Of a DNA stretch of 64,000 nucleotides, positions 3,960 to 64,000 are shown piece after piece (the stretch's first letter is position 1; the number at the start of each line of letters is the position of its first letter). Both the position numbers and the translations under genes were made by a program. The notes under the pieces were generated by a model. That model was given only the letters and a program-made list of their open reading frames with translations, searched no databases and was not told the DNA's origin. The DNA is from Corynebacterium humireducens NBRC 106098 = DSM 45392 (GTDB lineage: Bacteria > Actinomycetota > Actinomycetes > Mycobacteriales > Mycobacteriaceae). The stretch lies in the NCBI RefSeq assembly GCF_000819445.1, contig NZ_CP005286.1, forward strand, positions 1,674,001 to 1,738,000, in the 5' to 3' direction.

Positions 3960-4412
3960 ATGCGGTGGCTCATCCCCCTGACCGTGTTCCTGCTGTGCGT
4001 GACCCCGGCCCACGCCTACGTCTCCCCCACCGGCACCGTCCACGTCCTGCGCGCCTTCGACCGGCCCGAGCACGACTGGCTGCCCGGGCACCGCGGCGTG
4101 GACCTCTCCCTGCCCGTGGGTGGCCAGGTGGTGGCGGCCGGTCCCGGGGTGGTGGCCTTCGCCGGCGTGGTGGCGGGCACGCCGACGGTGTCCGTCGACC
4201 ACGCCGACGGGGTGCGCACCACCTACCAGCCGGTGCACGCCCGGGTCTCGCGCGGCGACGAGGTCCGGGAGGGCCAGATGCTGGGCGTGCTGGGACATCC
4301 GGTGGACGGGTACCCGGGACTTCACTGGGGAGCACGCCGCGGACAGGCGGACTACCTCAACCCGCTCTCGCTTCTCGACGCCCCCGTGATCCGCCTCAAA
4401 CCGAATCCCTAG
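3960..4412 (+). CDS. Exported M23-family (LytM-like) protein
   Basis: A 150-residue secreted protein with a short signal peptide (MRWLIPLTVFLLCVTPAHA, cleavage after AHA at about residue 19) and a compact peptidase-M23 fold. The first zinc motif H-x3-D is present (HRGVD). The C-terminal HxH motif reads G-L-H-W-G, so its first histidine is missing and hydrolase activity is uncertain. It lies between rpsB and xerC, where mycobacteria also carry a small M23-like gene. TACCGT 7 nt upstream of the ATG suggests leaderless expression. A role in cell-wall remodelling is inferred. Confidence 0.8.
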   Translation: MRWLIPLTVFLLCVTPAHAYVSPTGTVHVLRAFDRPEHDWLPGHRGVDLSLPVGGQVVAAGPGVVAFAGVVAGTPTVSVDHADGVRTTYQPVHARVSRGDEVREGQMLGVLGHPVDGYPGLHWGARRGQADYLNPLSLLDAPVIRLKPNP

Positions 4413-5293
4413 GCCCGCGGGTGGGCCCGTTTGAACACGTCCTTGAGCCGCTCCGCGGAGACGTGCGTGTAGATCTGCGTGGTCTGCAGGGAGGAGTGCC
4501 CGAGCATCTCCTGCACCACGCGCAGGTCCGCCCCGCCCTCCAGCAGGTGGGTCGCCGCAGTGTGGCGCAGGCCGTGCGGGGTGATGCGCTGACCGGTGAC
4601 CTGCCCCGCCCTGTCGACGATGCGCCGCACCTGCCGCGGGTCGATCCGCCCGCCCCGGACGCCGACGAACAGGGCCGGGGTGTCGCCGGCGAGCTCCGCA
4701 CGTCCCTGCTCGAGCCACTGGCGGACCGCGTCGGCGGCGGCCTCCCCGAAGGGGACGACGCGCTCCTTGTCCCCCTTGCCCCGGACCCGGACGGTACGCC
4801 GGGTCAGGTCCAGATCCTTGACATTCATGCCCGTGAGCTCCGAAACGCGCACCCCCGTGGCGTAGAGGAGCTCCAGCACGGCGGAGTCGCGGAGGAACTC
4901 AACCTCGTCGGCGGAGACCGCGTTGCCGACGAACTCTCCCGCCGTCCGCACCCCCAGCACCTCCGGCAGCGGCCGGGTGACCTTCGGGCTCACCAGTCGG
5001 GCGGCGACATCGGAGGAGAGGTGGCCCTGCTGGAGGGCCCACGTCGAGAAGCTCTTGACGGCGGCCGTGCGCCGGGCGAGCGTCGCCCGCGACCGACCCT
5101 CCGACACGGCCGCACCCAGCCAGGCACGCAGGGCCGGGAGGGTGAAGTCGGCGAAGGTGGGCACCTGCGCCGCCAGGCCCAGCAGGTCCGAGCGGTAGCC
5201 GCGGACGGTGGCCTCGGAACGCCCGCGCACCAGCCGGGCGTGCTCGGCGAAGTCCTCGACGGCCTCGGCCAGCTGTGACGGGTGTTGCCTCAT
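4409..5293 (-). CDS. xerC: Tyrosine recombinase XerC
   Basis: This 294-residue site-specific recombinase resolves chromosome dimers at dif, normally with XerD. An N-terminal SAM-like domain (about 1-90) precedes the catalytic domain, with Arg149 (ATGVRVSEL), Lys173, His240 and Arg243 (TPHGLRHTAATHL), His266 and the nucleophile Tyr275 (TTQIYTHV). All catalytic residues are present. The start at 5293 has no SD, but TACACT ends 8 nt upstream, so a leaderless mRNA is likely even though dprA ends only 4 nt away. Its housekeeping neighbours argue for core XerC rather than a phage integrase. Confidence 0.93.
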   Translation of the reverse strand: MRQHPSQLAEAVEDFAEHARLVRGRSEATVRGYRSDLLGLAAQVPTFADFTLPALRAWLGAAVSEGRSRATLARRTAAVKSFSTWALQQGHLSSDVAARLVSPKVTRPLPEVLGVRTAGEFVGNAVSADEVEFLRDSAVLELLYATGVRVSELTGMNVKDLDLTRRTVRVRGKGDKERVVPFGEAAADAVRQWLEQGRAELAGDTPALFVGVRGGRIDPRQVRRIVDRAGQVTGQRITPHGLRHTAATHLLEGGADLRVVQEMLGHSSLQTTQIYTHVSAERLKDVFKRAHPRA

Positions 5294-5297
5294 GTGT

Positions 5298-6455
5298 TCA
5301 GAGTGTATCGTCCCTCCGCCACACCGTGCCGTCGCGCGTGAGCAGACCCCGGCGCACCAGGTCCAGGAGCAGGTGGACCGTGAGGGGCAGGGGCAGTCCG
5401 GCGGCCTCCGCGACGGTCTGCGCCTCGCTGCCGGCGGGGTCGACGGCGTCGAAGACCCGCAGTTCGTTGCGGGACAGCGCCTGGACCGGGGTGGCGGCGA
5501 AGGCGAGCTCGTACTGCTCGGCGACGTCGAGGGCCCCGGCGGCGCCCAGGAGGGCGCGGATGTCGTCGGCACCCGTGACCAGCTGCGCGCGTCCCTCCTT
5601 GATGCGCTCGTGGCAGCCGAGCGACCCGGAACCCGTGACCGGTCCTGGCACCGCCATCGTCACCCGGCCGAGGCCCTCCGCCCAGGACAGGGTGTTGAGC
5701 GCGCCGGAACGCCAGGCCGCCTCGACGATGACGGTCCCGGCGGTCAGTGCCGCGACCAGCCGGTTACGGGTGAGGAAGCGGTGCCGCTGCGGCGGGGTGC
5801 CCGGCGGGTACTCACTGATCCAGGAGCCCTGCCCGGCGATCCTTTCCAGCAGGGTCGCGTTGCGGGCCGGGTAGGTGCGGTCGATGCCGCACGCGGCGAC
5901 CACCACGGTGAGTCCCCCGGCGGCGAGGGCCGACTCGTGGGCGGCGGTGTCGATTCCCAGGGCCCCACCGGAGACGACCGTCCACTGGTGGGTGGCCAGT
6001 CCGGTGGCGATCTGGCGGGTGGCCTCGATGCCGTAGCGGGTCGCGGCGCGGGTGCCCACCACCCCGACCGACTGCGCCACCGTCTCCCCCAGCGGCCGCC
6101 CCCTCACCCAGAGTGCATGGGGCGGGACGGCGTCCGCCTGGTAACTGCGGAGATGGTCGCTGCGTCCGGTGGCGGCGAAGCCGAAGGCGAGGTCGAACTC
6201 TGTGTGCGGCCACTCCGGGGACTCCGGGGTGATCAGGCGCGCCCCCACCGCGGCGGCGTCGGCGAGGTCCTGCTCGGCCCGGTCGAGGGCATGGCGGGCC
6301 TCGGTCTGTCCGGCGAGTTCGCCGAGCCAGGAGGCGCGGGTACGGATGCCGCGGGCGATCTCGGAGGGGTCGCGGCCGGCGTCGAGAAGCTGCCGGAGCG
6401 GGCGGGACGGTCCCTCGACGACGCGGTTGAGGTACGCCCAGTCACGCTGGCTCAT
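5298..6455 (-). CDS. dprA: DNA-processing protein DprA
   Basis: DprA binds incoming or other single-stranded DNA and loads RecA. This 385-residue protein has a helical N-terminal region, the Rossmann-like core with VVGTRAATRYG, SGGALGIDTAAHESAL and RNRLVAALTAGTVIVEA, and a C-terminal winged-helix-like segment (ELRVFDAVDPAG onward). Its ATG overlaps the stop of the upstream comM-like gene (ATGA), showing translational coupling. DprA and ComM are almost universal in bacteria, so they do not by themselves prove natural competence. Confidence 0.93.
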   Translation of the reverse strand: MSQRDWAYLNRVVEGPSRPLRQLLDAGRDPSEIARGIRTRASWLGELAGQTEARHALDRAEQDLADAAAVGARLITPESPEWPHTEFDLAFGFAATGRSDHLRSYQADAVPPHALWVRGRPLGETVAQSVGVVGTRAATRYGIEATRQIATGLATHQWTVVSGGALGIDTAAHESALAAGGLTVVVAACGIDRTYPARNATLLERIAGQGSWISEYPPGTPPQRHRFLTRNRLVAALTAGTVIVEAAWRSGALNTLSWAEGLGRVTMAVPGPVTGSGSLGCHERIKEGRAQLVTGADDIRALLGAAGALDVAEQYELAFAATPVQALSRNELRVFDAVDPAGSEAQTVAEAAGLPLPLTVHLLLDLVRRGLLTRDGTVWRRDDTL

Positions 6456-7915
6456 GCGTCCTCCCGCAGTTCCATCGCGCGGGCCACGTGGTCGATGTCG
6501 GGCTGCGCCGCACCCTCCAGGTCCGCCAGGGTCCACGCCACCTTGAGGGAACGGTCGACTCCCCGTTGGGTGATCTCCCCGTGGGCCAGGGAGTTCCCGA
6601 GCAGCGCCATGCCGGCGTCGTCCGCCGGGTGCTCCCGCCGCAGACGGTGCGGGTCCATCGCGGCGTTGACCGTGCCGAAACGCCGCTGCGCCCGCTCCCG
6701 GGCCGTCGCGACCCGTCCGGCGATCACCGCGGAGGTCTCCTCCTCCCCCGCCAGCAGCCCGGCGGCGGAGGTGCGGGCGGTGATGTCGAGCCGGTCCCGC
6801 AGGGGTCCGGAGAGGTTGCGCAGGTAACCCGCCCGCTCGTGGGAGCGGCAGCGGCAGCGGGCCGGGTCCTCCGCCGCACACCGGCACGGGTTGGCCGCGA
6901 GGATGAGCTGGAAACGCGCCGGGAACACGACCTCCCGGCGCGCCCGCAGCAGCCGGACGCGACCGTCCTCGAGCGGGGTCCGCAGGCCGTCGAGGATGGC
7001 GGCGGGCACCTCGGAGACCTCGTCGAGGAAGAGCACCCCGTGATGGGCGAGGCTCACCGCCCCGGGGCGGGCGTTGCCGGAACCGCCCCCGAGCAGCGCC
7101 GCGCGGGTGACGGAGTGGTGCGGGTCGATGAACGGCGCACGCAGGACCGCTCCCCCGCGCCCCGCCACCGAGTGCACCGCCGTCGCCTCTAGCGACTGCG
7201 TGGGTGTGAGCGGCGGGAGGATCCCCGGCAGGCGGGCCGCGATCATCGACTTCCCCGATCCGGGTGGCCCGATGAGCAGCATGTGGTGCCCGCCCGCCGC
7301 GGCGATCTCCGCCGCCCGGCGGGCCTCCGGCTGCCCTGCGAGGTCGGCGAAGTCCGGCACGTGCTGCTTCCCGACGCCCACCCCGCCCCGCGCCACCGGC
7401 AGGTCCCCGTGCCCGGTGGCCCACGCCCAGGCGTCGGTGAGGGAGTCGGCGGTGAGCACGGTCAGGCCCTCCACGAGGGTGGCCTCGGCGGCGTTGCCCG
7501 GCGGGATGAGGGCGTGGGTGCAGCCGTGGGCGCGGGCGGCCAGCAGGGCCGGCAGGACGCCGGGAACGGGACGGACGGTGCCGTCGAGACCCAGCTCGCC
7601 GACGACCACCGCGTCCCGTAGCCGGGGCGCCGGGGTGCCGGCCGCCAGCACCGCCAGGGCGGTCGGCAGGTCGAAGTGCGAGCCCGACTTGCGCAGCGCG
7701 GCCGGTGACATGGAGACGACGATCTTCGTCCGCGGCCACGGCAGCCCGGAGTTGGCCACGGCGGTGCGGATGCGGTCGCGGGACTCGCTCACCGCGGTGT
7801 CCCCGAGCCCGACGAGGTGGATGCCCGGCAGTCCGGGGCCGACGTTGGCCTCCACGGTGACGAGCCGGGCGGTCACGCCCTCCAGGGCGATGGTCAGTGA
7901 CCTACCGAGCGCCAT
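6452..7915 (-). CDS. YifB/ComM-family AAA+ ATPase (Mg-chelatase-like)
   Basis: A 487-residue protein with an N-terminal Lon-protease-like (ChlI) domain (about 1-170), then an AAA+ module with Walker A in LIGPPGSGKSM, Walker B in VLFLDEVSE, the RCRCRSHE segment and a C-terminal Mg-chelatase domain. In Vibrio and Haemophilus ComM is a hexameric branch-migration helicase in transformation, and that function is assumed here from the family. The start at 7915 overlaps the end of yraN by 14 nt and has GAGGGGG upstream. It precedes dprA in the same operon. Confidence 0.9.
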   Translation of the reverse strand: MALGRSLTIALEGVTARLVTVEANVGPGLPGIHLVGLGDTAVSESRDRIRTAVANSGLPWPRTKIVVSMSPAALRKSGSHFDLPTALAVLAAGTPAPRLRDAVVVGELGLDGTVRPVPGVLPALLAARAHGCTHALIPPGNAAEATLVEGLTVLTADSLTDAWAWATGHGDLPVARGGVGVGKQHVPDFADLAGQPEARRAAEIAAAGGHHMLLIGPPGSGKSMIAARLPGILPPLTPTQSLEATAVHSVAGRGGAVLRAPFIDPHHSVTRAALLGGGSGNARPGAVSLAHHGVLFLDEVSEVPAAILDGLRTPLEDGRVRLLRARREVVFPARFQLILAANPCRCAAEDPARCRCRSHERAGYLRNLSGPLRDRLDITARTSAAGLLAGEEETSAVIAGRVATARERAQRRFGTVNAAMDPHRLRREHPADDAGMALLGNSLAHGEITQRGVDRSLKVAWTLADLEGAAQPDIDHVARAMELREDA

Positions 7916-8279: not shown

Positions 8280-8359
8280 GTGTTTCCCCCTGATGTGACG
8301 GTGTGGTCGTCCTCAGGGTGACGCGGATGAGGGGAAAAGGCGAGCGTCGGAAAGCGGAA

Positions 8360-8404: not shown

Positions 8405-8417
8405 GGGGTGCACTTGA

Positions 8418-10082: not shown

Positions 10083-10127
10083 GGGGACCGAGCTTAGCAG
10101 CAGGTGACGGGCCTACACTGGTACGAC

Positions 10128-11843
10128 ATGAAGTCCTCCGCGTTCCGTGCGCTTCTCAGCATGCTCGGCCACCACAAGGGAGCCCTCACCGCCGCGGTGG
10201 TGCTCTCCCTGATCGGATCGGCCCTCGGGCTGGCGCAACCCATGGTGATCAACCGCCTCATCTCCACCGTGGGTGAGGGTCCGATCGCCCACCTCGCGTG
10301 GATCCTGGTGGTGCTGCTGGTGGTGTCCTCGGTGCTCGGCGCGCTGCAGTCCTACCTGCTCACCGTCACCGCGGAGACCGCGGTCAAGGCCACCCGCCAC
10401 GACCTCATCGGCCGTCTGCTGCGCCTGCCGATCCCCGTGTACGACAGGCACCGCACCGGCGACCTGGTCACCCGCCTGGGTTCGGACACCACCATCATCC
10501 GCGCCGCATTCACCGGCGGCCTGGTCAGCGCCATCGGCGGACTGGCCACGATGATCGGTGCGATCGTCCTCATGGCGCTTGTCGACGTCTTCATGCTCGT
10601 CCTCGTCCTCGCCGTCGTCGCCGTGACGCTGCTGGCGGTCATCGGCTCCTCTACCCTCATCCAGCGCTACACCAAACGCGCCCAGAAGGCGGTCGGTGAC
10701 CTCGGCGCCGGCATGGACCGCGCCCTCGTCGCCGTGCGCACCATCCGCGCGTCCGGCGCCCAGGACAAGGTGGAGGCCGACCTGCGTGCCGACGCCGACA
10801 ACGCCTGGCTCCAGGGTGTCCGCATCGCGCGGGTCGCGGCGCTGATCTTCCCCGCCGCCGGACTGGCGATGCAGGGCTCCTTCCTGCTCGTCCTCGGCAT
10901 CGGCGGCGCCCGCGTCGCCGCCGGCACCATCACCGTCGCCGACCTGGTCACCTTCGTGCTCTACCTGTTCATGGTGTCCATGCCGCTCGGCTCGATCTTC
11001 GGGGCGATCACCACGATCCGCCAGGCCATGGGTGCGATCGAACGCATCCAGCAGGTCATGGACGAGGCCCCCGAGTCGACCGACGGCGTCGCCGCCCGCC
11101 CGGCCCACTCCGTGCGTTTCGACGACGTCTCCTTCGCCTACGAGACCGCCGAGGACGAGGAGCCGGTGCCCGTCCTGGAGAACGTCACCGTCGACATCCC
11201 CGCCAGCCGCAAGACCGCCATCGTCGGCCCCTCCGGCTCCGGCAAGTCCACCATGCTCGCGCTCATCGAACGCTTCTACGACCCCACCTCTGGGCGGCTG
11301 TTCCTCGGGGACCAGGACATGGCCGACCTCACGCGGGCGTCGGTCCGGGAGATCGTCGGCTACGTCGAACAGGAGGCCGCCGTGCTGGCCGGCACCGTCC
11401 GCGACAACCTGCTGCTCGCCACCCCGAACGCCACCGACGAGCAGTGCTGGTGGGCCCTCGACCAGGTCAACCTGCGCGAACGTATGGAGGAGGCCGACGG
11501 CCTCGACACCGAGCTCGGCGACCGTGGCCTCACCCTCTCCGGCGGTCAGCGCCAGCGGCTGGCGCTGGCCCGCATGCTCCTCATGGACAGCCCGATCCTG
11601 CTTCTCGACGAACCCACCTCCGCCGTCGACTCCCAGAATGAGCAGCTCATCCTCGACGCCATCGACGCCTCCGCCACGGACCGCACCCTCGTGGTCGTCG
11701 CCCACCGACTGTCCACGGTCACCGACGCCGACCAGATCATCGTGCTCGACGACGGGCGCGTCGCCGGGGTGGGCACCCATGAGGAACTGATGCAGTCGAG
11801 TCCGCTCTACCGCGACCTGGCCTCCCGCCAGCTGCTGGCTTAA
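10128..11843 (+). CDS. ABC exporter, fused membrane and ATPase domains
   Basis: A 571-residue half-transporter expected to work as a homodimer. Six transmembrane helices occupy about residues 15-300. The nucleotide-binding domain follows, with Walker A GPSGSGKST, the signature LSGGQRQRLALARML, Walker B ILLLDEPTSAVD and H-loop VVVAHRLSTV. The substrate cannot be told from sequence; related proteins are annotated as multidrug or lipid exporters. I chose the ATG at 10128 because TACACT (10114-10119) stands 8 nt before it. A GTG at 10104 would lie upstream of that promoter. It is divergent from lepB and interrupts the rplS-lepB order. Confidence 0.93.
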   Translation: MKSSAFRALLSMLGHHKGALTAAVVLSLIGSALGLAQPMVINRLISTVGEGPIAHLAWILVVLLVVSSVLGALQSYLLTVTAETAVKATRHDLIGRLLRLPIPVYDRHRTGDLVTRLGSDTTIIRAAFTGGLVSAIGGLATMIGAIVLMALVDVFMLVLVLAVVAVTLLAVIGSSTLIQRYTKRAQKAVGDLGAGMDRALVAVRTIRASGAQDKVEADLRADADNAWLQGVRIARVAALIFPAAGLAMQGSFLLVLGIGGARVAAGTITVADLVTFVLYLFMVSMPLGSIFGAITTIRQAMGAIERIQQVMDEAPESTDGVAARPAHSVRFDDVSFAYETAEDEEPVPVLENVTVDIPASRKTAIVGPSGSGKSTMLALIERFYDPTSGRLFLGDQDMADLTRASVREIVGYVEQEAAVLAGTVRDNLLLATPNATDEQCWWALDQVNLRERMEEADGLDTELGDRGLTLSGGQRQRLALARMLLMDSPILLLDEPTSAVDSQNEQLILDAIDASATDRTLVVVAHRLSTVTDADQIIVLDDGRVAGVGTHEELMQSSPLYRDLASRQLLA

Positions 11844-11984: not shown

Positions 11985-12984
11985 TCCCGTCCCAGTCCCG
12001 GACCTCCTCCCCTGCGGCGATGTCCCGGAACCAGTAGGTCTCCTCCGGTGCCCAGCCGGCCAGCACACTGGCCCGGCCCTCATCGACGGGCACCGCCAGA
12101 CCGGCGGTGGTGAGGTATCCGCGGACCGTGAGGTGCACGGCGTCATAGTGCTCCGCGACGCCCTCGTAGTCAGGCATCACCCACCGGCCCTCCCGGCCCG
12201 TACACTGCGCCCAGTTGTAGCGCTTCTGGTTCGTCACCTCCAGCGGGAAACGACGGCACAGCCCGGCCCAGTCCTGCGGGCCCGTGATCTCGAGGACGCG
12301 GGGAGAATCAGGTACCTCCACCCGTCGGCACCGGACCTGTCTCCAGCCGAAGGAATCCTCCATGAAGTGCAGGCCGGCCGGGGTGGCGTCGGGAAGCAGC
12401 GTGGTCGTCACCGGCAGCCCGAAGGGCGGGGTCGACCACCATTCGCCGCCGCCAAGGTTCCTCCTCGCCTCCTCCCGCCGTGTCTGCTCTGCCCAGCGCC
12501 GCAGGACGCGGGAGGAGGGCGGGGCAGGCGCCTCGTCACGGTGTCCATCGCGCCACCACAGCTCCCACTGGTCGTCCCCGTCGAAGGGGGCGTCGAACCA
12601 GGGGGCCACCAGGTGCTCCTCCACGCGGGTCAGCGCCGCGCGGATCTCCGGGGTCGCCAGCAGATGGTCCCACCCGGAGGGCGGCTGCCAGTAGGCGGCG
12701 TTGTCCACGGCGTCGGCCACACAGTTCCGGAGCATGTCGACGGTCGGCTCCACCAGGGGTGTGCCATCCAGGAGTGCCGCCACCTCCCCCGGCGTCACGT
12801 CCGGCCAGTCAGGCGACGGCGTCGAGGAGCCTCCGTCGATGGTGTAGTAGGAGACGTTCGACGTCTCGAAGGGGCGTGTGGCGTGGAAGAGCGCCGAGTG
12901 CAGGGGGTGGTCGACTGTGTCGGTTGCCGCCAGGGCGAGCTCCATGAGGACGTCGCGGCCACGGGGCGCGTCAACCAGCTTCAT
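11971..12984 (-). CDS. Unrecognised 337-residue protein between direct repeats
   Basis: I do not recognise this protein. It is rich in Trp, Pro and acidic residues (for example GDDQWELWWRDGH and QPPSGWDHLL), and has no signal peptide, transmembrane segment or familiar catalytic motif. It looks cytoplasmic. The start at 12984 (MKLVDAPRG) is 6 nt after TACGGT. A GTG at 13053 inside the repeat would add 23 residues encoded by the hairpin and is less likely. The gene sits exactly in the unit between two 140-bp direct repeats, with a good promoter in the upstream copy. Composition resembles its neighbours, so recent transfer is not obvious. Confidence 0.7.
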   Translation of the reverse strand: MKLVDAPRGRDVLMELALAATDTVDHPLHSALFHATRPFETSNVSYYTIDGGSSTPSPDWPDVTPGEVAALLDGTPLVEPTVDMLRNCVADAVDNAAYWQPPSGWDHLLATPEIRAALTRVEEHLVAPWFDAPFDGDDQWELWWRDGHRDEAPAPPSSRVLRRWAEQTRREEARRNLGGGEWWSTPPFGLPVTTTLLPDATPAGLHFMEDSFGWRQVRCRRVEVPDSPRVLEITGPQDWAGLCRRFPLEVTNQKRYNWAQCTGREGRWVMPDYEGVAEHYDAVHLTVRGYLTTAGLAVPVDEGRASVLAGWAPEETYWFRDIAAGEEVRDWDGTIDT

Positions 12985-13698: not shown

Positions 13699-16198
<2,500 letters not shown>

Positions 16199-17457: not shown

Positions 17458-18242
<785 letters not shown>

Positions 18243-18243
<1 letters not shown>

Positions 18244-19319
18244 TGCTCCCCGAGCCTGAACTGCGCCGCACCGCCCGCCAGCTCGCCCTGCCCGGCTACG
18301 GCCTCGAGCAGCAGGAGCGGCTGCACCGCGCCCACGTCCTCGTCATCGGCGCCGGCGGCCTCGGCTGCCCGGCGATGCAGTCGCTGGCCTCCGCCGGTGT
18401 CGGCCACATCACGGTCATCGACGACGACACCGTCGACATCACCAACATCCACCGTCAGATCCTCTTCGGGGCCTCCGACGTGGGGCGCGTGAAGGTGGAC
18501 GTCGCCGCCGAACGTCTCCGGGAGCTGCAGCCGGGGATCACGGTGACGGCGCTGAACGAGCGGCTGACCGTCGACAATGCGGTGGAACTGGTGGGGTCCG
18601 TGGACCTGGTCCTCGACGGCTCCGACTCCTTCGAGACGAAGTACCTCGTCGCCGACGCCGCCGAGATCACCGGCACCCCCCTGGTGTGGGGTACGGTGCT
18701 GCGTTTCCACGGCGACGTGTGCCTGTTCAACTCCGGCCCCGCGCAGCGCGGCGTCGGTCTGCGTGACCTGTTCCCCGAGCAGCCGCGCGGCGACTCCATC
18801 CCCGACTGCGCCACCGCCGGCGTCCTCGGCGCCACCACCGCGGTGGTCGGCGGCCTGCTGGCCACCACCGCCATCGGCTGGCTCGCCGGCCTCGACGTGG
18901 TGCCGGGCCGCATGTTCAGCTACGACGCCTTCCCCGGCTCTACCCGCACGTTCCAGATCCTGGCGGACCCGGCGCGCACGCCCGTGACCTCGCTGGAACC
19001 GTCGTATGGTGGGGACATGTGTGCATTCAATCCCGCTGAGGCGCTTCTCGACGACGTCCGCGCCGGCAAGGCCGTCCTCCTCGACATCCGTGAGCCCCAC
19101 GAGAAGATGCTCAACGACTCCCTCGCGGAGCTGAACCCGGTGCGTCTGCCGCTCTCGGACATCTTCTCCCCCGACACGATCCGCCGCCGCCTGGGCGATG
19201 CGGAGCGGGTGGTCGTGCACTGCGCCTCGGGGATGCGCTCGGCCGAGTTCTGCGCGAGGTACGCGGACCTCGGCTACGAGTTCATCGACCTGCCCGGCGG
19301 GATCAACGGCCTGCGCTGA
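18243..19319 (+). CDS. thiF: ThiF-type adenylyltransferase with rhodanese domain
   Basis: A 358-residue E1-like protein that activates ThiS. The N-terminal 250 residues hold the ATP-binding fold (VLVIGAGGLGCPAMQSLASAGVG), the R and N residues of NIHRQILF and the later DCATAGVLG. In canonical MoeB/ThiF proteins zinc-binding Cys pairs would follow, but I cannot pick them out. The last 100 residues are a rhodanese domain with an intact Cys loop (CASGMRS), so sulfur may be delivered in cis. The GTG start overlaps the thiG stop. MoeB-like activity on molybdopterin carriers is an alternative. Confidence 0.9.
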
Positions 19320-19332: not shown

Positions 19333-21594
<2,262 letters not shown>

Positions 21595-22509: not shown

Positions 22510-22866
22510 ATGCTCATCCACCTCGACGCCTCCTCCCCCACCCCGCTCTACGCGCAGCTCATCGCGGCGCTGCGCAGGGCGATCGTCTCCGGGGACATTG
22601 CCGACGGCGAGCGCCTCCCCTCCGCGCAGGACCTCGCCGCTGCCCTCGACCTCAACCGCAACACGGTGCTGCGCGCCTACCGTGACCTCCGCGAGGAGGG
22701 GCTCGTCGAACTCCACCGCGGCCGGGGCACCATCGCGCGGCGGCCGACGCGGGCCCCGGACGGGGGCGTCGAGAAGCATCTTGACGCCCTCGCCGCCGCC
22801 GCCAGGGAAGCCCACGTCCCCCTCGCCGACCTCGTCGCCGGCCTGACCATCAGAGGAGTCCTGTGA
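22510..22866 (+). CDS. GntR-family (YtrA-like) regulator
   Basis: A 118-residue repressor-type protein. Residues about 10-75 form a GntR winged helix (PLYAQLIAALRRAIVSGDIADGERLPSAQDLAAALDLNRNTVLRAYRDLREEGLVE). The short C-terminal part lacks a large effector domain, as in the YtrA subfamily, which usually controls linked membrane or ABC genes. GGGAG lies about 7 nt upstream of the ATG. It overlaps the first codon of a downstream membrane gene that is now a pseudogene, so it may have outlived its main target. Confidence 0.9.
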   Translation: MLIHLDASSPTPLYAQLIAALRRAIVSGDIADGERLPSAQDLAAALDLNRNTVLRAYRDLREEGLVELHRGRGTIARRPTRAPDGGVEKHLDALAAAAREAHVPLADLVAGLTIRGVL

Positions 22867-23554
22867 ACCGCCACCGACTGGCCACACTCGGCATCCCCGC
22901 CCTCGCGCTGTGCGTCGTGGCCAGATAGACGCTCACCGCCAGCCACCAGCTGCCCGACCCCGTGGCCAGCCACTTCGACTTCTCCGGGCGGGCTTGCCGA
23001 CGCCGCCGACGCGACCCTCGGCCCGGCGATCCCCCTCGCCCTGGGAGTCGGTGTCGCGGGTGGACTGCTCGTGGGGGTGCTCGCCGATCCCCCTGCGCCC
23101 GGGATCACGCGCCGTGTGGTTCGGTCGCGCCCGCCTCTCCCGGGTCGGCTACTGGCTCACGCTCGGCGCACTGTTCACTGTCGCCCTCCTCGCAGTCATG
23201 GCCTTCCTCGACGGTGCCTGGGTGTCGGCGCTCCTGCTGGCCGTGGGTACCCCGGCTCTGCTGGCCTTCCTTGAGGTGCGGGTGCGTGTCGACGCCCGCG
23301 GCACCCACTGGCAGCTGCTCCCCGGCTTCCCGCGCGGCAGCATCCCCCACGACGAGGTGACCCGCGTCGGAGCCGTCGACATCCGCCCCGGCGACTGGGG
23401 CGGCTGGGGATGGCGCGTCGGCACGCAGGGGCAGGCGGTGCTCATCCGCGGCGGCGAGGGGCTGCGCATCCAGCGCGGCAGCAGGAACCTCTACATCACC
23501 GTCGACGATGCAGCTCGTGGGGCCGCCCTCATCGAGGCCTACCGCCGGGCCTGA
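22863..23554 (+). pseudogene. Decayed DUF1648-type membrane protein gene
   Basis: The frame opens with a GTG overlapping the GntR stop and reads as a DUF1648-like protein (LPDPVASHFDFSG), but a TAG interrupts it at 22926. The similarity then shifts frame near 22990 (continuing GLADAADATLGPAIP) and again near 23075-23100 (continuing RAVWFGRARLSRVGYWLTLGALF). The last third, to 23554, reads cleanly with two membrane segments and a soluble domain. One stop and two frameshifts make a functional product unlikely, although the 3' part could in principle be translated. Confidence 0.8.
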
Positions 23555-34099: not shown

Positions 34100-36437
<2,338 letters not shown>

Positions 36438-45949: not shown

Positions 45950-46688
45950 GCGGATTCTCCTTCAGCGCGAGATAGGCCTCGCGCGCGGAGGCCTGCTCGG
46001 CGATCTTCTTGCTCGGGCCGACGCCACGTCCCAGCTCGACGCCGTTGACGGTCACCAGGGCGCTGAACGTGAGATCGTGCTCGGGGCCGGTCGACGTGGC
46101 CTCGTACACCGGCATCGGGTACTTGAGCTCCGCGGCCCGCTCCTGCAGGTTCGTCTTCCAGTCGCGGTGGATGTTGCTTGCCGACGCAGTGTTGATCTTC
46201 TCCGCGAACAGGCGCAGGACCACGCTGCGGGCGACCTCGAAACCGTGCTCCAGGTAGATCGCGCCCAGCAGCGCCTCGGTGGTGTCCGCGAGGATGGAGT
46301 CCTTCTCGCGGCCCTCGGTGACCAGCTCTCCCCTGCCGAGCAGGATGTGCGGGCCGAGGTTGATCTCCCGGGCGATGTCGGCCAGTCCGAAGCGGGACAC
46401 GATGGAGGCACGCATCTTCGAGATGTCCGACTCCGGACGCGACGGGTACTGGTCGTAGAGCTGGTTGGCCACGGACAGGCCGAGGACGGCGTCGCCGAGG
46501 AACTCGAGACGCTCGTTGTTCGGCAGGTTGCCGTTCTCGTTGGCGAAGCTGCGGTGGGTCAGCGCCAGCCGCAGGTGGGTGTCGGAGACGGTGACCCCGA
46601 GGGCGTCGAGAAGCGGGGTGTGGTCGACCGCCGCGAAGGCCGCGGCCCAGGCCTCCTTGCCCGTGGGCCGGGAACGCCTCCGACTCAC
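45927..46688 (-). CDS. rnc: Ribonuclease III
   Basis: A 253-residue double-strand RNA endonuclease for rRNA processing. The signature [14 protein letters not shown], the second acidic site [15 protein letters not shown] and the C-terminal dsRNA-binding domain ([13 protein letters not shown] ... [19 protein letters not shown]) are intact. The GTG start overlaps the DUF177 stop (GTGA). The gene order DUF177-rnc-mutM is conserved in actinobacteria. Confidence 0.96.
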
Positions 46689-47203: not shown

Positions 47204-47908
47204 CTACTCAGTTCGGCGGCGGGACACACCTGCGCCCCGACGCAGCGCCTGACGGTCGCGGGTCACGGTGCGCAGGACCTCGTTGAGGGAGCCCTCGAAC
47301 TCGGAGAGCTTGGAGTCGACGAACTCGTCGCACTCGCTGCGCAGACGCTCGGAATCCGCGTGGGCGGCGTCGACGATGCGGTGCGCCTCCTCGTTCGCGC
47401 GACGCACGACCTCGGACTCGGAGACCAGTCGCTCCTGCTCCGCGATGCCCTCGTCGACGCTGCGCCGGTAGGAGTCGTTGCCGTCCTCGATGAGGCGGTC
47501 GGCCTCGACCTGGGCACGGTGGATGGTGTCCTCCGCTTCACGACGCGCCGACGTCACCATGTGGTCGGCGTCGTCCTCCGCCTTCGCCACCATGGTGGTG
47601 GCGCGGTGCTGGGCCTCGTCGACCATGTGGTCGGCGTCCGCCCGGGCGCGGGAGACGATCTCGTGGGCCTCCGCCTCGGCTGCGGCGATCATGTCGCGGG
47701 CCCGGTCCTCGGCCCCGCGGAGGATCTCGTCGCGCTGGTCCAGGACATCCTGGGCGTCGTCGATCTCGACGGGCAGGGCGTTACGCAGATCGTCGAGAAG
47801 CGCGAGGGTGTCGTTGCGCGGCACCATGCAGTTGGAGGTCATGGGCACGCCGTAGGCCTGCTCCACGGTCTGGTTGAGCTCGTCCAGGGCTTCGAAGACT
47901 CTATACAT
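47204..47908 (-). CDS. DivIVA-like septation protein (SepIVA)
   Basis: A 234-residue coiled-coil protein beginning MYRVFEALDELNQTVEQAYGVPMTSNC, the pattern of the mycobacterial septal factor SepIVA (Rv2927c type). From residue 45 it is almost continuous charged heptads (AEAEAHEIVSRARADADHM). No membrane segment is present. Synteny with DUF177-rnc-mutM-smc matches mycobacteria. TAATCT (47916-47921) 7 nt before the ATG suggests leaderless transcription, and the gdhA terminator lies immediately upstream. Confidence 0.88.
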   Translation of the reverse strand: MYRVFEALDELNQTVEQAYGVPMTSNCMVPRNDTLALLDDLRNALPVEIDDAQDVLDQRDEILRGAEDRARDMIAAAEAEAHEIVSRARADADHMVDEAQHRATTMVAKAEDDADHMVTSARREAEDTIHRAQVEADRLIEDGNDSYRRSVDEGIAEQERLVSESEVVRRANEEAHRIVDAAHADSERLRSECDEFVDSKLSEFEGSLNEVLRTVTRDRQALRRGAGVSRRRTE

Positions 47909-47985: not shown

Positions 47986-50909
<2,924 letters not shown>

Positions 50910-53788: not shown

Positions 53789-55042
53789 ATGAGCGACATC
53801 GCCCGTCTCCTCGCCCACCACGACGTCGATCTCAGCTGGCAGAGGTCCTTCTACGAGGACCTCCACGAACGCCCCGAGCTGTCCGGACACGAGCACGAGA
53901 CGGCGGAGAAGATCGCGCGGAAGCTCGAGGACTTCGACTGTGAGGTCACCACCCACATCGGCGGTTTCGGCATCGTCGCCGTCTTCCGCAACGGGGAGGG
54001 CCCCACCGCCCTGTTCCGCGCCGACTTCGACGCCCTCCCGATCACCGAGAAGACCGGCGTGCCCTTCGCCTCCACGCGCGTGCGCCCCGGCCCGGACGGC
54101 ACCCGGACGGGTGTGATGCACGCCTGCGGCCACGACATGCACACCACCGCCCTGCTGGGGACGTGTGCGCTTCTCGACGCCCACCGGGATGCCTGGTCCG
54201 GCACCTTCATCGCCCTGTTCCAGCCCGCGGAGGAGACGGGTGAGGGCGCGGCCGCGATGGTCGCCGACGGTCTGGTCACCCGCATCCCCCACCCCGACGT
54301 GTGCCTCGGCCAGCACATCATGCCCGGCCGCGCGGGAGAGGTACAGACAAAGGTGGGACCCCAGTTCGCCGCCTGCGACTCCATCCGCATCACCATCCCG
54401 GGCCGCTCCGCCCACGGTTCCATGCCGCACAACGCGATCGACCCGACCTATATCGCGGCGATGGTCATCATCCGTCTGCAGGGCATCGTCGGCCGCGCGG
54501 TGGACCCCAACGACTTCGCCGTCATCTCCGTGGGTTCCCTGCACTCGGGGACGACGAACAACATCATCCCCTCCTCCGCGGAACTGGTGCTCAACTGCCG
54601 TTTCTACAGTGAGACCACGAAGCGCCGAGTCTACGCCGCCATCCGCCGGGTGGTGGAGGCGGAGTGCGTGGCGTCGGGAAGCGAGGAGGCGCCGACCTTC
54701 GAGTTCTTCGGTCACGGCGAGCTCGTCGACAACAGCCCGGAGGTGTTCGCCACCGTCCGCCCGGTCTTCGACGAGGTCTTCGGACGCGAGTCGGTGGACG
54801 CGCAGCGGACGACGGTGTCGGAGGATTTCGCGAACATCCCCAAGGCCTTCGGCGTCCCCTACATGTACTGGGTCGTGGGCTGCACGCCGCAGGACCTGTG
54901 GGACCGCGCGGTGGCGGAGAATCGGGTGAAGGAGGACGTTCCTGTGAACCACATGAACACTTTCCTCCCCGAATACGAACCCACCGTCTCCGCCACCACG
55001 CGGGCGGCCACCGCAGGTGTGCTCGCTTATCTGGGTCACTGA
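53789..55042 (+). CDS. M20-family amidohydrolase
   Basis: A 417-residue metalloamidase of the AmiA/HipO/ACY1-like group. Metal ligands and catalysis lie in HACGHDMHTTALLG, FQPAEETGEGAAAM, LGQHIMPG and RSAHGSMPH, with a dimerisation domain between. It likely removes N-acyl groups from amino acids or peptides; the substrate is unclear. AAGGAG lies 12 nt upstream, farther than usual. The nearest promoter candidate is TACTCT near 53735. Confidence 0.88.
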   Translation: MSDIARLLAHHDVDLSWQRSFYEDLHERPELSGHEHETAEKIARKLEDFDCEVTTHIGGFGIVAVFRNGEGPTALFRADFDALPITEKTGVPFASTRVRPGPDGTRTGVMHACGHDMHTTALLGTCALLDAHRDAWSGTFIALFQPAEETGEGAAAMVADGLVTRIPHPDVCLGQHIMPGRAGEVQTKVGPQFAACDSIRITIPGRSAHGSMPHNAIDPTYIAAMVIIRLQGIVGRAVDPNDFAVISVGSLHSGTTNNIIPSSAELVLNCRFYSETTKRRVYAAIRRVVEAECVASGSEEAPTFEFFGHGELVDNSPEVFATVRPVFDEVFGRESVDAQRTTVSEDFANIPKAFGVPYMYWVVGCTPQDLWDRAVAENRVKEDVPVNHMNTFLPEYEPTVSATTRAATAGVLAYLGH

Positions 55043-55130: not shown

Positions 55131-57509
55131 ATGAGTGACACCCTGCCCCCGCTGAACTCGACCGTCGGTGGACACGTCCGCGCCGCATCCGGTCAGACCC
55201 CGGAGAGTGCCACCGACTACAAGTTCTGGTTCGGTCTCTCCCGCAGTGTCATGGAGCAGATCGCCGACAAGTGGGAGGCCACCACCCGGGCCTACGCGGG
55301 TGTCCGCCAGCAGCACTACTTCTCGGCGGAGTTCCTCATGGGACGCGCGCTGCTGAACAACCTCACCAACCTCGAGATGGTCGACGAGGCCGCCGCGGCC
55401 GTCCGCGAGCTCGGACATGAGCTGGGCGACGTCCTCGAGGCGGAGAACGACGCGGCACTCGGCAACGGTGGTCTCGGCCGCCTCGCCGCCTGCTTCCTGG
55501 ATTCCTCCGCCACCCAGGACCTGCCGGTCACCGGCTACGGCATCCTCTACCGTTACGGCCTGTTCAAGCAGGCCTTCGACAACGGTTTCCAGACGGAGCA
55601 CCCGGACGCCTGGAAGGAGAACGGCTACCCGTTCTACATCCGCCGTGAGGAGCAGCCGCGCATCGTCCACTTCGACGACATGACCGTGCGCGCGGTGCCC
55701 TACGACATGCCGATCACCGGCTACGGCACCGACAACGTCGGCACCCTGCGTCTGTGGAAGGCCGAGCCGATGGAGGAGTTCGACTACGACGCGTTCAACT
55801 CCCAGCGCTTCACCGACGCCATCGTCGAGCGTGAGGCCGTCATGGATCTCTGCCGCGTCCTGTACCCGAACGACACCACCTACGCCGGCAAGGTCCTGCG
55901 TGTCCGCCAGCAGTACTTCTTCGTGTCCGCCTCCCTGCAGGCCATGATCGAGTCCCACCTGGAGAACCACGGCGACCTGTCGACCTTCGCCGACTACAAC
56001 TGCATCCAGCTCAACGACACCCACCCGGTGCTCGCCATCCCGGAGCTCATGCGCCTGCTTCTCGACGAGCACGGCCTCACCTGGGAGGCCGCCTGGGAGA
56101 TCGTCACCGGCACCTTCGCCTACACCAACCACACCGTGCTGGTCGAGGCTCTCGAGCAGTGGAACGTCTCCATCTTCCAGCAGCTCTTCGGCCGCATCTG
56201 GGAGCTCACCGTCGAGATCGACCGTCGTTTCCGCGAGGACCTGCGTGAGCGTGGTTTCGACGAGGCCCACATCGCCCGCATGGCCCCGGTCCAGGACGGT
56301 CACGTCCACATGGCCTGGATCGCCTGCTACGCCGCGTACTCCATCAACGGTGTCGCCGCGCTGCACACCGAGATCATCAAGCGTGACACCCTCGGCGACT
56401 GGCACGACATCTGGCCGGAGAAGTTCAACAACAAGACCAACGGCGTCACCCCGCGTCGCTGGCTGAAGATGTGCAACCCGCGCCTGTCCGACCTGCTGAC
56501 CCGCCTGGTGGGTTCCGACGAGTGGGTCACCGACATGGACAAGCTCAAGGAGATCGCGCACTACGCCGACGACGAGTCCGTGATGAACGAGCTGCTCGAG
56601 ATCAAGGCGGCCAACAAGGTCGAGTTCGCCGAGTGGATCAAGGAGCGTCAGGGCATCGAGATCGACCCGGACTCGATCTACGACACCCAGATCAAGCGCC
56701 TCCACGAGTACAAGCGCCAGCTGCTCAACGCGCTGTACATCCTGGACCTGTACCTGCGCATCAAGGAGGACGGCCTCCAGGACGTCCCGCCGCGCACCTT
56801 CATCTTCGGTGCGAAGGCGGCCCCGGGCTACTACCGCGCCAAGGGCATCATCAAGCTCATCAACGAGATCGCCAACGTGGTCAACAACGACCCGGAGGTC
56901 AACGACGTCATCCGCGTCGTCTTCGTCGAGAACTACAACGTCTCCCCCGCCGAGCGCATCATCCCGGCGACCGACGTCTCCGAGCAGATCTCCACCGCCG
57001 GCAAGGAGGCCTCCGGCACCGGCAACATGAAGTTCATGATGAACGGTGCCCTCACCCTCGGCACGATGGACGGCGCGAACGTCGAGATCCACGACTCCGT
57101 GGGCGACGAGAACGCCTACATCTTCGGTGCCCGCGAGGAGGAGCTGCCGGAGCTGCGCGCCACCTACAACCCGTGGCACGCCTACGAGACCGTCCCGGGC
57201 CTCAAGCGCACCCTTGATGCGCTTGTCGACGGCCACCTGGACGACAACGGCACCGGCATGTTCCACGACCTGCGTTCCTCGCTTCTCGACGGCGGCGGCT
57301 GGGAGACCCCGGACGTCTACTACGTCCTCGGTGACTTCGCCGACTACCGCGAGACCCGCGACCGCATGGCCGCCGACTACGCCGACCGCCTGCACTGGGC
57401 GCGTATGTGCTGGGCGAACATCTGCGCCTCGGGCCGTTTCTCCTCCGACCGCACCATCAACGACTACGCGCGTGAGGTGTGGAAGCTGGAGCCGACCCCG
57501 GTGAAGTAG
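55131..57509 (+). CDS. glgP: Glycogen/maltodextrin phosphorylase
   Basis: A 792-residue GT35 enzyme that releases glucose-1-phosphate from alpha-glucans. The PLP lysine is in EASGTGNMKFMMNGALTLGTMDGANVEI, and the N-terminal SAEFLMGRALLNNL and GNGGLGRLAACFLDS regions are typical. The size is normal for bacterial GlgP. C. glutamicum also has a second phosphorylase (MalP); the assignment to glgP versus malP is uncertain. It ends in a strong terminator. Confidence 0.93.
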   Translation: MSDTLPPLNSTVGGHVRAASGQTPESATDYKFWFGLSRSVMEQIADKWEATTRAYAGVRQQHYFSAEFLMGRALLNNLTNLEMVDEAAAAVRELGHELGDVLEAENDAALGNGGLGRLAACFLDSSATQDLPVTGYGILYRYGLFKQAFDNGFQTEHPDAWKENGYPFYIRREEQPRIVHFDDMTVRAVPYDMPITGYGTDNVGTLRLWKAEPMEEFDYDAFNSQRFTDAIVEREAVMDLCRVLYPNDTTYAGKVLRVRQQYFFVSASLQAMIESHLENHGDLSTFADYNCIQLNDTHPVLAIPELMRLLLDEHGLTWEAAWEIVTGTFAYTNHTVLVEALEQWNVSIFQQLFGRIWELTVEIDRRFREDLRERGFDEAHIARMAPVQDGHVHMAWIACYAAYSINGVAALHTEIIKRDTLGDWHDIWPEKFNNKTNGVTPRRWLKMCNPRLSDLLTRLVGSDEWVTDMDKLKEIAHYADDESVMNELLEIKAANKVEFAEWIKERQGIEIDPDSIYDTQIKRLHEYKRQLLNALYILDLYLRIKEDGLQDVPPRTFIFGAKAAPGYYRAKGIIKLINEIANVVNNDPEVNDVIRVVFVENYNVSPAERIIPATDVSEQISTAGKEASGTGNMKFMMNGALTLGTMDGANVEIHDSVGDENAYIFGAREEELPELRATYNPWHAYETVPGLKRTLDALVDGHLDDNGTGMFHDLRSSLLDGGGWETPDVYYVLGDFADYRETRDRMAADYADRLHWARMCWANICASGRFSSDRTINDYAREVWKLEPTPVK

Positions 57510-59894: not shown

Positions 59895-60698
59895 TCAGCG
59901 CGAAGGGCAGGACGGGTGCTGCCCCGTCGCGACGAGGGTGCGGGTCAGACGCCGCGGGTCCTCCGCGGTCATGAGCTCCTCACCGACGACCACCGCGTCC
60001 GCGCCGGCGGCCGCGTAGTAGAGCAGGTCCCGGGGCGAGTGCACCCCGGACAGGGCGATACGCACCGTCGACTCGGGCAGGCCCGGCGCGATCTCCGCGA
60101 AGAGCTTCCTGTCGACGTCCCCGCCCACCAGCGGGCGCGCGTTGACCGCCACGACCCGGGCACCGGCCTCCATCGCGCGATCCGCCTCCGCGGGGCTGCG
60201 CACCTCGAGGACGGCGGTCATGCCGAGCGACTCGATGCGGTCGAGGAGGGAGACGAGGCGGTTCTGGTCGAGCAGTTCCACCTGCAGGGGCACGAGGTCG
60301 GCGCCGTAGCAGCGGGCCTCGTGGATCTGGTACGGGTCGAGGATGATGTCGCGGCAGAACATGGGCAGCTCGACGGCCTCGCGGGCATCGCGCATGTCCT
60401 GGAGGGAACCCTGGAAGCGGAGGCGCTCCGTCTGGCAGGCGATGAGGTGGGCGCCGCCCTCCTCGAAGTCGCGGGCGAGGTGGGCGATGGGGGCGTCGGC
60501 GTCGAGAAGCACCCGGCCGTTCATCGCCCGCTTGATTTCGGCGATGACGCTGCACCCCGTGCGCAGCAGCGCGGACAGTCCGTCGCGGGCCGGGGTGGTG
60601 TCGCGGGAGCGGGCCTTGACGTCCTGGAAGGACAGGACGGCCTCGCGTGCGGCGACCTCCTCCAGGACTCCGGCGATGAGCCGGTCACGAGCGCTCAT
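59895..60698 (-). CDS. Divergent TrpC-like (indole-3-glycerol-phosphate-synthase family) protein
   Basis: A 267-residue TIM-barrel clearly related to TrpC ([55 protein letters not shown]). Key residues differ: the usual K-x-SPS loop reads IKRAMNG, and the catalytic Lys of the K-D-F motif is Arg (FCRDIIL). IGPS activity is therefore doubtful. The ATG at 60698 has GGAGGT 8 nt upstream. It lies between the TIGR02234 protein and lgt, where mycobacteria have a true trpC, but trpB and trpA are missing here. Confidence 0.75.
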
Positions 60699-62527: not shown

Positions 62528-63316
62528 TCATGAGTTCAGGATCCCGTCCATCGTACTCATGATGGCCTGGTGCGCCCGCGCGGTACCCGCCACAACGCCG
62601 ATCGACCGCGGGGTCCATTCGTTGCCCTCGATGTCGGTGACCACTCCCCCGTTGGCCCGCACCAGCATGACGCCCGCCGCGTTGTCCCACACGTGCGGGG
62701 AGAAGCTCACGGCCCCGCCGAAGATGCCCTGCGCGGTGAAAGCCAGGTCGACGCCGACCGAACCGGTGATCCGGGGGCGCAGGTACGTCGCCGACAGCTC
62801 CGCCAGCAGTCCCTGCCGCAGCAGCGAGGGGAACTGCGAACGCACCTGGGAGGCCACCGAGGAGAACCCCACCTGGGCGACGAGCTGGTTCGCCTCCGTC
62901 AGCGGGGTGATCGGCTGTCCGTTGAGGCGGACGGGTCCCCCCTCGTAGGCGGTGAGCCGCCGGCCGAGCAGCGGCATGGCGGTGATCGCGACGACGGGCT
63001 GGTCCTCGACGAGCAGGCTGATGAGGATCGCGCACATCGGGTTGCCCGCCGCGAAGTTGGCCGTGCCGTCGACGGGGTCGACGACCCACACGGCGTCGTG
63101 GCTGTAGCAGCCGCCGGCCTCCTCCCCGAGCACGGGGATGCCGGTGAACTGGGTGAGGGTCTGCCGCAGGTAGGCCTCGATCGCGAGGTCCACCTCGGTG
63201 GCGAAGTCGCCCGGGCTCTTCATCGCGGCCGGGTCGGAGCCGACCCCGGCGAGGAACATCCTCTCCGCGTCGTCGCACACCGCCTCCGCGACGGCGAGCA
63301 GTTCCCGGGCGTCCAT
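62528..63316 (-). CDS. impA: Inositol-monophosphatase-family enzyme
   Basis: A 262-residue Mg-dependent phosphatase. Motifs: the Glu pair in LGEEAGG, DPVDGTANFAAGNPM and WDNAAGVMLVRANGG. The his neighbourhood matches impA of C. glutamicum; histidinol-phosphatase activity is possible but in C. glutamicum HisN is encoded elsewhere. It starts 4 nt after hisA. Confidence 0.9.
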   Translation of the reverse strand: MDARELLAVAEAVCDDAERMFLAGVGSDPAAMKSPGDFATEVDLAIEAYLRQTLTQFTGIPVLGEEAGGCYSHDAVWVVDPVDGTANFAAGNPMCAILISLLVEDQPVVAITAMPLLGRRLTAYEGGPVRLNGQPITPLTEANQLVAQVGFSSVASQVRSQFPSLLRQGLLAELSATYLRPRITGSVGVDLAFTAQGIFGGAVSFSPHVWDNAAGVMLVRANGGVVTDIEGNEWTPRSIGVVAGTARAHQAIMSTMDGILNS

Positions 63317-63320
63317 GTCC

Positions 63321-64000
63321 CTAGAGCTTCTCGACGGCCGCGAGCGCCTCGCGCAGCGTGAAGCGCTTCTCGTACAGCGCCTTGCCGATGATGGCGGAGT
63401 CGATGCCCTCGTCGGTGTAGCGGGCGAGCTCGATGACGTCGTCGAGGACGGAGATGCCGCCGGAGGCGACGATCTTCGCGTCGGTGGCGGCAGCCACCTC
63501 ACGCAGGAGCTGGACGTTCGGGCCCGCGAGGGTGCCGTCCTTGGACACGTCGGTGACCACGAAGCGGGTGCAGCCGGCGGCGTCGAGACGCTCGAGGACC
63601 TCCCACAGGTCACCGCCGTCGGAGACCCAGCCGTTGCCGCGGGTGCGCCACTCGCCGTCGATCTCGCGGACGGCGATGTCGACGGCGACCTTCTCCCCGT
63701 AGGAGCGGAGGACCTCGGCGATCCACTCCGGCTTCTCCAGCGCGGCGGTGCCGATGTTGACGCGCGTGGCGCCGGTGGCCAGGGCCCGCTCGAGGGAGGC
63801 GTCGTCGCGGATGCCGCCGGTCAGCTCCACCTTGATGTCGAGCTGACGGGTGATCTCCGCCATGAGCTCGTGGTTGGAGCCGCGGCCGAAGGCGGCGTCG
63901 AGGTCGACGAAGTGCAGCCACTCCGCGCCCTGGGCCTGCCACTCGAGGGCCGCCTCCAGCGGGGAACCGTAGGACTTCTCGGTGCCTGCCTCACCCTGAT
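63321..64000 (-). CDS. hisA: Phosphoribosylformimino-AICAR isomerase HisA, C-terminal part
   Basis: The last 225 or so residues of HisA, whose start lies beyond the right edge. [31 protein letters not shown] and the C-terminal [16 protein letters not shown] show the phosphate-binding loops. The upstream frame continues through 64000 ([16 protein letters not shown], with the catalytic acid region). A TrpF-active PriA form is not excluded. It is followed 4 nt later by impA. Confidence 0.95.

Follow-up and report, generated by a model that had tools for sequence, protein, structure and literature searches.

An iterated two-part word with dialects in Corynebacterium, most likely a DNA uptake sequence

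A 64,000 bp stretch of the Corynebacterium humireducens NBRC 106098 = DSM 45392 chromosome (RefSeq accession number NZ_CP005286.1; coordinates 1,674,001 to 1,738,000), referred to below as the window, was found to be rich in a short word, GCTTCTCGAC, that belongs to a motif iterated on both strands of this and many other Corynebacterium genomes. The motif, GCTT-NN-CGACG (GCTTNNCGACG), is most likely the DNA uptake sequence (DUS) of Corynebacterium, with dialects. Copies placed at random on both strands, dialects, switching between dialects at the same sites, conservation, scarcity in phage DNA and inverted pairs in relatives fit the trace expected of a word that biases uptake. On balance, it also seems that most Corynebacterium species practise word-tagged natural transformation via a Tad/Flp pilus, in at least two mutually exclusive dialects that have apparently been switched genome-wide more than once, which would be a DUS system outside the Proteobacteria and on a different pilus. 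To our knowledge, this trait is not known in this branch of the bacteria, and we know of no uptake word in Gram-positive bacteria generally.

Motif architecture and coding context

The first-pass annotation of the window had reported 28 copies of the 10-mer GCTTCTCGAC, 27 of them extended by G, and six copies of a variant, GCTTGTCGACG. All were recovered, the 10-mer on the + strand in 17 cases and on the − strand in 11, where 0.15 copies are expected (mean of 100 dinucleotide shuffles); the copy at 31333 is followed by C. The genome-wide count that the annotation had proposed as a check gave 613 copies of GCTTCTCGAC (317 + and 296 −) in the chromosome, a single contig of 2,681,312 bases, compared with 20 (14 + and 6 −) for the same letters reversed, and the window is therefore about 1.9 times richer than average in the 10-mer form. 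The annotation had overlooked that the two central positions are only loosely constrained and that further fillings are also enriched. The full motif occurs 1438 times genome-wide, about one copy per 1.9 kb, and 48 times in the window, compared with 34 expected from the genome average.

The motif was dissected in an 864 kb sample of the genome, consisting of 40 stretches of 20 kb and the window. The 11-mer GCTTCTCGACG is present there in 202 copies and accepts single changes mainly at two middle positions. GCTT and CGACG occur together 482 times at a gap of 2, and only 3 to 35 times at each other gap from 0 to 11. The motif is bipartite and non-palindromic, with a spacer of exactly 2, and GCTTCTCGAC is one of its forms. 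The middle was filled by CT in 202 copies, GT in 87, GC in 43, CC in 30, TC in 25, AT in 24 and TT in 22, with 1 to 14 copies for each of the nine remaining fillings, and G seldom precedes the motif (35 of 481).

Called genes make up 86% of the sample and contain 406 of the 482 motif copies, the gene calls being our own, self-trained and uncurated. By these calls, 16 of the 28 10-mers in the window encode Leu-Leu-Asp and ten, read in an opposite gene, Val-Glu-Lys, a small shift from the 17 and nine annotated previously, and the same two copies (5042 and 28227) fall in other frames. CTT was confirmed to be rare, at 2% of Leu codons, and CTT-CTC-GAC is the top spelling of Leu-Leu-Asp (133 of 256 among the 14 commonest spellings). 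As the majority of copies translate as one of these two common peptides, a peptide or codon-pair habit might have generated the word. However, where 182 copies of the 11-mer were observed in genes, synonymous shuffling yielded 24.4 ± 3.7 (200 shuffles, largest 34) and a protein-preserving codon-pair chain 29.7 ± 4.2 (100 runs, largest 39), and for the full motif 406 copies were observed compared with 68.7 ± 6.4 by synonymous shuffling (60 shuffles, largest 83). The codon and codon-pair nulls thus fall short by about sixfold or more. The rare codon CTT is also retained inside words, intergenic and other-frame copies exist, and prophages are nearly free of the word. A codon or peptide artefact as the origin of the word is ruled out by the two nulls and is already refuted unless the gene calls are badly wrong; the probability left to it is negligible. 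Selection or drive at the DNA level, as the annotation had suggested, is supported by these nulls, by CTT retention and by the enrichment across the genome and the genus.

Across the 40 stretches, the motif has a mean of 10.85 copies per 20 kb and a variance of 11.5, therefore its placement is about random. The origin was placed at coordinate 0, an assumption in line with a rough GC skew that makes no use of gene position; the sampled copies then number 114 + and 111 − in the left half of the chromosome and 143 + and 114 − in the right half, the latter leaning slightly to + but not clearly past chance. A strand bias along each replichore, of the type seen for Chi or FtsK orienting polar sequences (KOPS), was sought in the 864 kb sample and none was clear. 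Pooled over the 170 genomes that carry this form of the motif, the strands hold 91,812 and 91,935 copies. Genome by genome, the balance is tighter than independent placement would give (mean chi-square of 0.62, where 1 is expected), and the kinship of the genomes may account for part of the difference.

A role in guiding a recombination or repair enzyme, as played by Chi for RecBCD, would be in keeping with the density of the motif, with its species dialects and with its location in the core genome. However, words such as Chi show polarity along replichores, and a polar word of this kind fits poorly because the strands are near equal in both halves and over the 170 genomes; the word is also bipartite, with two free bases. 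A recombination signal is therefore considered quite unlikely, and among the uptake, recombination and methylation words offered by the annotation, uptake fits best.

Distribution, dialects and conservation

Among 301 genomes of the family, the 11-mer is strongly iterated solely inside Corynebacterium, with a top count of 90 outside the genus (genome G103). The GACG form, GCTTNNCGACG, and a second form, GCTT-NN-CGATG (GCTTNNCGATG; the GATG form), were counted in the same 242 Corynebacterium genomes, and types were assigned with cut-offs of 190 (GACG) and 400 (GATG) copies that were set after the counts were known. The GACG type was found in 170 genomes (195 to 1964 copies, median 1090), the enrichment in relatives for which the annotation had advised a check, and the GATG type in 13 (490 to 1184 copies), while one genome, G319, has both forms (352 and 1337 copies) and 58 have neither. 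Within GACG genomes the GATG form has a median of 53 copies and a maximum of 165, and within the 13 GATG genomes the GACG form has 26 to 97; intermediate GATG counts of 159 to 223 were seen in four of the 58 genomes with neither type.

An unsupervised scan for spaced words, covering one comEC and one tad locus (40 kb), placed all or part of the motif at the top of the ranking in nine of nine GACG genomes and revealed the GATG form in G189; a later scan gave this form in G189, G389, G321 and G303. A possible third dialect, GCTCNNCGACG, was above control in several GC-rich genomes but formed no clean class. Genome G309 has an iterated word of its own, ATGACGYCGCG, found on both strands (329 + 315 = 644 copies in a 2.0 Mb genome; loci L063, L171, L199 and L209) and present in 1 to 26 copies in 63 other genomes searched. 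No comparable non-palindromic word was found in the 40 to 60 kb scanned in each of ten genomes with a divergent Tad cluster, though a palindrome, CTCG-N-CGAG, scored high in two GC-rich members of this group, G402 and G254. Scans of non-bearers with a canonical Tad cluster (G054, G217, G505, G323 and G412) likewise gave no clear word. The scan of G412 was dominated by a repeat array, with more than 50 copies of a CGCG-2-CGCG word (L066 and L169), perhaps a CRISPR array.

Named loci were obtained using a profile of C. humireducens ComEC with 14 relatives, for which the best 80 of 170 loci were all from Corynebacterium, the nearest being 85% identical. Among them, C. tuberculostearicum, C. kefirresidentii, C. 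striatum, C. aurimucosum and C. minutissimum use GACG, and C. macginleyi, KPL1814, MSK130, ACRPS, C. phoceense and J010B-136 use GATG. The comEC locus of C. glaucum DSM 30827 (L087), a further bearer, has 11 words. Six GACG-GATG locus pairs gave 43 aligned GACG sites, for which the partner has GATG in 24 cases, GACG in none and a broken word in 19, with 25 further sites unaligned. The replaced sites are distributed over the pairs C. tuberculostearicum/KPL1814 (5 of 9), SK141/C. macginleyi (4 of 8), C. kefirresidentii/MSK130 (6 of 9), C. striatum/C. phoceense (4 of 6), C. aurimucosum/C. phoceense (3 of 5) and C. minutissimum/C. phoceense (2 of 6). Starting from the GATG side, 40 sites were aligned, of which 24 have GACG in the partner, one has GATG and 15 are broken. 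These alignments show one form standing in for the other at matching sites between sister clades. As the pairs share common ancestry and all come from the same stretch of about 21 kb surrounding comEC, they represent no more than two independent switches. The C to T change is silent in the main frame, as GAC and GAT both encode Asp.

Conservation was assessed in the comEC region of 17 bearer pairs picked from 89 close pairs and compared in both directions, not all of which are independent. All nine fixed bases are kept in 278 of 345 aligned words (81%). By the same nine positions, the figure is 41% for all 11-mers and 32 of 78 for the near-word control GCT[GC]NNCGACG. The control words CCTGNNCGACG, GCCGNNCGACG and GCTGNNCGAC[ACT] were kept in 8 of 26, 8 of 24 and 6 of 37 cases, respectively, and the other dialect, GCTTNNCGATG, used as a control, in 30 of 50. 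The first free base varies like the background (12% compared with 11%) and the second less (6%). A CTT aligned to Leu stays CTT in 207 of 229 cases inside words, compared with 786 of 1626 outside.

A search of 71 GACG bearers and nine GATG genomes for terminase genes gave nine places, in six of these 80 genomes. Five prophage structural modules of 20 kb each (L226, L231, L232, L233 and L234) contain 0, 0, 1, 0 and 0 words, which is one word where 51 are expected at the hosts' own word densities. Three shorter phage-like segments (L228, coordinates 1 to 8441; L229, 1 to 8015; L230, 1 to 7674) contain 0, 1 and 0 words where about 12 are expected, and words resume past the ends of these segments, the boundaries of which were drawn by us. 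L227 was excluded from the count, being a terminase fragment in transposon-rich DNA (2 words, 7.3 expected). The prophage terminase of L226 (genome G507) is 72-79% identical to the 40 best phage records, mostly from Firmicutes hosts, and Corynebacterium phages are among the matches listed for the portal protein of L231.

The scarcity in phage DNA and the dialects could also result from modification, if a DNA methyltransferase or a restriction-modification system acted on the word, as proposed for the highly iterated palindrome 1 (HIP1) in cyanobacteria. However, nine fixed bases without symmetry are unusual for a methyltransferase target, and restriction usually selects against its sites instead of filling the genome with them. 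HIP1 has been linked to two methyltransferases (PMC4390886), but GCTTNNCGACG lacks the self-complementarity of a HIP1-like palindrome. No paper naming the motif, and nothing on natural transformation of Corynebacterium, was among the matches listed in a literature search that covered few subscription journals. A modification target is considered decidedly improbable.

Inverted partners of the word, defined as 9 or more of the 11 bases at a distance of 14 to 60 bases, were counted in 96 loci of other bearers, some of which are the same region in related species, with both arms of a hairpin counted. A downstream partner was found for 14 of 75 intergenic words compared with 14 of 972 coding words, and an upstream partner for 0 of 75 compared with 21 of 972. 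In L079, the pair forms a perfect hairpin leading into TTTTT, and L203 has a hairpin in the GATG dialect.

The even spread over both strands of the chromosome, the conservation, the dialects and the near absence from five prophages might also come from a site to which a nucleoid or chromosome-organising protein binds; the site would be needed throughout the chromosome, and the dialects would track changes in the protein. However, no regional pattern was seen in the 40 stretches, where the counts are Poisson-like, and the 58 of 242 species without either form are not what is expected of a needed organising site. There is also no obvious reason for such a site to form inverted intergenic pairs in relatives, and this explanation is regarded as unlikely.

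Positions of the motif in the window

The positions given here were obtained by searching the window for the motif and for the word GCTTCTCGACG, with intergenic status taken from our gene calls. The word is on the + strand at 4370..4380, 11600..11610, 17997..18007, 19043..19053, 19695..19705, 24507..24517, 28227..28237 (other frame), 34393..34403, 35956..35966, 38534..38544, 39926..39936, 50103..50113, 54169..54179, 56057..56067, 57281..57291 and 63326..63336. On the − strand it is at 5042..5052 (other frame), 6380..6390, 22767..22777, 34738..34748, 35569..35579, 39590..39600, 46604..46614, 47791..47801, 50484..50494, 50816..50826 and 60500..60510. The 10-mer GCTTCTCGAC with C in place of the final G is at 31333..31342 (+).

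The variant GCTTGTCGACG is at 10577..10587, 15746..15756, 31627..31637, 43456..43466 and 57221..57231 on the + strand and at 43594..43604 on the − strand. Three copies of GCTTTCCGACG, at 1862..1872 (−), 3915..3925 (+) and 8345..8355 (−), are all intergenic, as is one copy of GCTTGCCGACG, at 22992..23002 (+); the remaining copies of GCTTGCCGACG are at 2560..2570 (+), 25515..25525 (−), 30671..30681 (−) and 46176..46186 (+). GCTTCCCGACG is found at 7366..7376 (+), 12387..12397 (−), 17778..17788 (+) and 54672..54682 (−), and single copies of GCTTGGCGACG, GCTTGACGACG and GCTTCACGACG are at 33499..33509 (+), 38285..38295 (−) and 47535..47545 (+), respectively. The window also includes a thiamine pyrophosphate (TPP) riboswitch at 13691-13806 (+), with 54.5 bits compared with a gathering score of 54.3, ahead of a gene at 13802-15568.

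Competence genes and known systems

In the C. humireducens genome, comEA adjoins comEC (L051; coordinates 10905-11525 and 9310-10908, respectively), and a tadZ-tadA-tadB-tadC-flp-tadE-tadF cluster is present (L157; coordinates 8457-12790). Here and in other genomes, comEC and tadA were named by Pfam matches and the remaining genes by the look of their sequences and by gene order. A strong TadA match was found in 40 of 40 GACG bearers tested and, with an E-value and place cut of our own, in 22 of 40 low-GACG genomes, nine of the 40 being GATG users. In one locus (L054; G317) comEA is about 7 kb from comEC and not adjacent, and in C. phoceense (L147; GATG dialect) comEA is apparently disrupted or misread. 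Two genomes with low or intermediate word counts are G405, with an internal TGA in comEC, and G461 (90% complete), in which comEC was not found.

If the word is an uptake sequence, a surface receptor of the natural-transformation machine would prefer double-stranded DNA bearing it, with ComEA or a minor Tad/Flp pilin as the probable receptor. Word-bearing fragments would enter through ComEC and then recombine, which would give word-bearing alleles an advantage in being copied through the population; by this drive the word would accumulate on both strands across the core genome. Changes in the receptor would shift the preferred word, giving the dialects CGACG or CGATG. Three elements of this scheme are inferred from genome sequence: uptake driven by the word, a protein that recognises it, and the capacity of these bacteria for transformation. 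As in a DUS, the copies number hundreds to thousands, well beyond what composition and codon use predict, the word is non-palindromic, evenly spread on both strands and rare in foreign DNA (the five prophage modules), dialects occur among relatives, and bearers have competence genes.

A search for the receptor, by eye or by column, in ComEA, ComEC, Flp, TadE and TadF found none and gave weak leads only. Position 172 of ComEA is Ser in 8 of 9 GATG sequences compared with 4 of 59 GACG sequences (two genomes being counted twice), but the eight GATG Ser represent two lineages and the GACG species C. pilosum also has Ser. ComEA or pilin residues as determinants of dialect are thus a weak case, confounded by ancestry. 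ComP is the DUS receptor in Neisseria, and TadF is a candidate by loose analogy with it because, by eye, a cysteine pair is present in 29 of 29 aligned sequences.

These weak leads weigh against an uptake sequence, as do several further observations. comEC is present in 241 of 242 genomes, so its loss is ruled out as the cause of word loss, and the machinery fails to separate bearers from non-bearers. In ten low-GACG loci, which include two GATG genomes and G309 with its different word, comEA and comEC are each one open frame. Ten of the other 18 low-GACG genomes have a diverged Tad cluster at the same place, and this divergent, syntenic cluster rules out loss of the Tad cluster in the ten non-bearers examined. 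As comEC, comEA and the Tad cluster are also found in non-bearers, gene presence does not explain which genomes bear the word, and the machinery was not missing where the word was missing. Competent bacteria without an uptake word exist, so joint loss of machinery and word is not strictly defining.

The remaining points concern the comparisons made above. The control words GGTGNNCGACG (16 of 32) and GCAGNNCGACG (18 of 31) are also fairly conserved, and the conservation and dialect-exchange tests both come from the comEC region alone (about 21 kb). The prophage expectation uses host density, uncorrected for the composition of the prophages, and any slowly accumulating host word would likewise be missing from them. 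In the window's own genome, a downstream inverted partner was found for 1 of 71 intergenic words compared with 23 of 409 coding words, hence no effect; an upstream partner was found for 4 of 71 and 14 of 409, respectively.

In the ten loci with the divergent Tad cluster (L177-L186), TadA is 42-50% identical, and a single frame of 349-409 amino acids is present in all ten at the place expected for tadB and tadC. Neither form of the word is iterated in these ten genomes.

An uptake sequence in Corynebacterium would mean natural transformation with self-recognition in a large actinobacterial genus for which no earlier report was found among the literature matches listed. The genus includes commensals of human skin and nose, among which tagged uptake would partly account for gene flow. 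It would also offer a route for handling laboratory strains that resist electroporation and, as an independent second DUS system, would allow the evolution of receptor and dialect to be traced at the same sites. Even if its function is another, a word that occupies both strands of the genome and changes dialect, as found in 184 of 242 species, demands explanation.

A DUS is found on both strands, with inverted pairs at terminators; an inverted-pair arrangement was seen here in relatives but not in the window's own genome. The known systems differ from the Corynebacterium word in several respects. Chi is also an iterated short word but is polar, which the Corynebacterium word is not clearly. 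HIP1 is, like this word, iterated genome-wide (PMC4390886), but is palindromic. The DUS of the Neisseriaceae, for which eight dialects with single-letter differences and one two-dialect genome are described (PMC3630211), is comparable in form: it is short and non-palindromic, occurs hundreds to thousands of times, and has dialects one letter apart and one genome using two. It differs in that the word here is GCTTNNCGACG, with a free 2-base centre, in an actinobacterium, that the pilus is Tad/Flp and not a Gram-negative type IV pilus, and that the system here is known from sequence alone. The uptake signal sequence (USS) of Haemophilus influenzae, with about 1300 copies and inverted copies that form terminators (PMC5217627), is similar in copy number and, where the relatives are concerned, in the inverted copies, whereas the word and phylum of this Pasteurellaceae system are unrelated. 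Micrococcus luteus is an actinobacterium with the same gene set (comEA, comEC and tad/flp) in which Flp pili are required for transformation, with no uptake word mentioned for it in the part of that account available (PMC6370729). The pattern of the word, the DUS and USS cases and Flp-dependent transformation in M. luteus together lead us to propose Tad/Flp-dependent, word-guided uptake of DNA in Corynebacterium.

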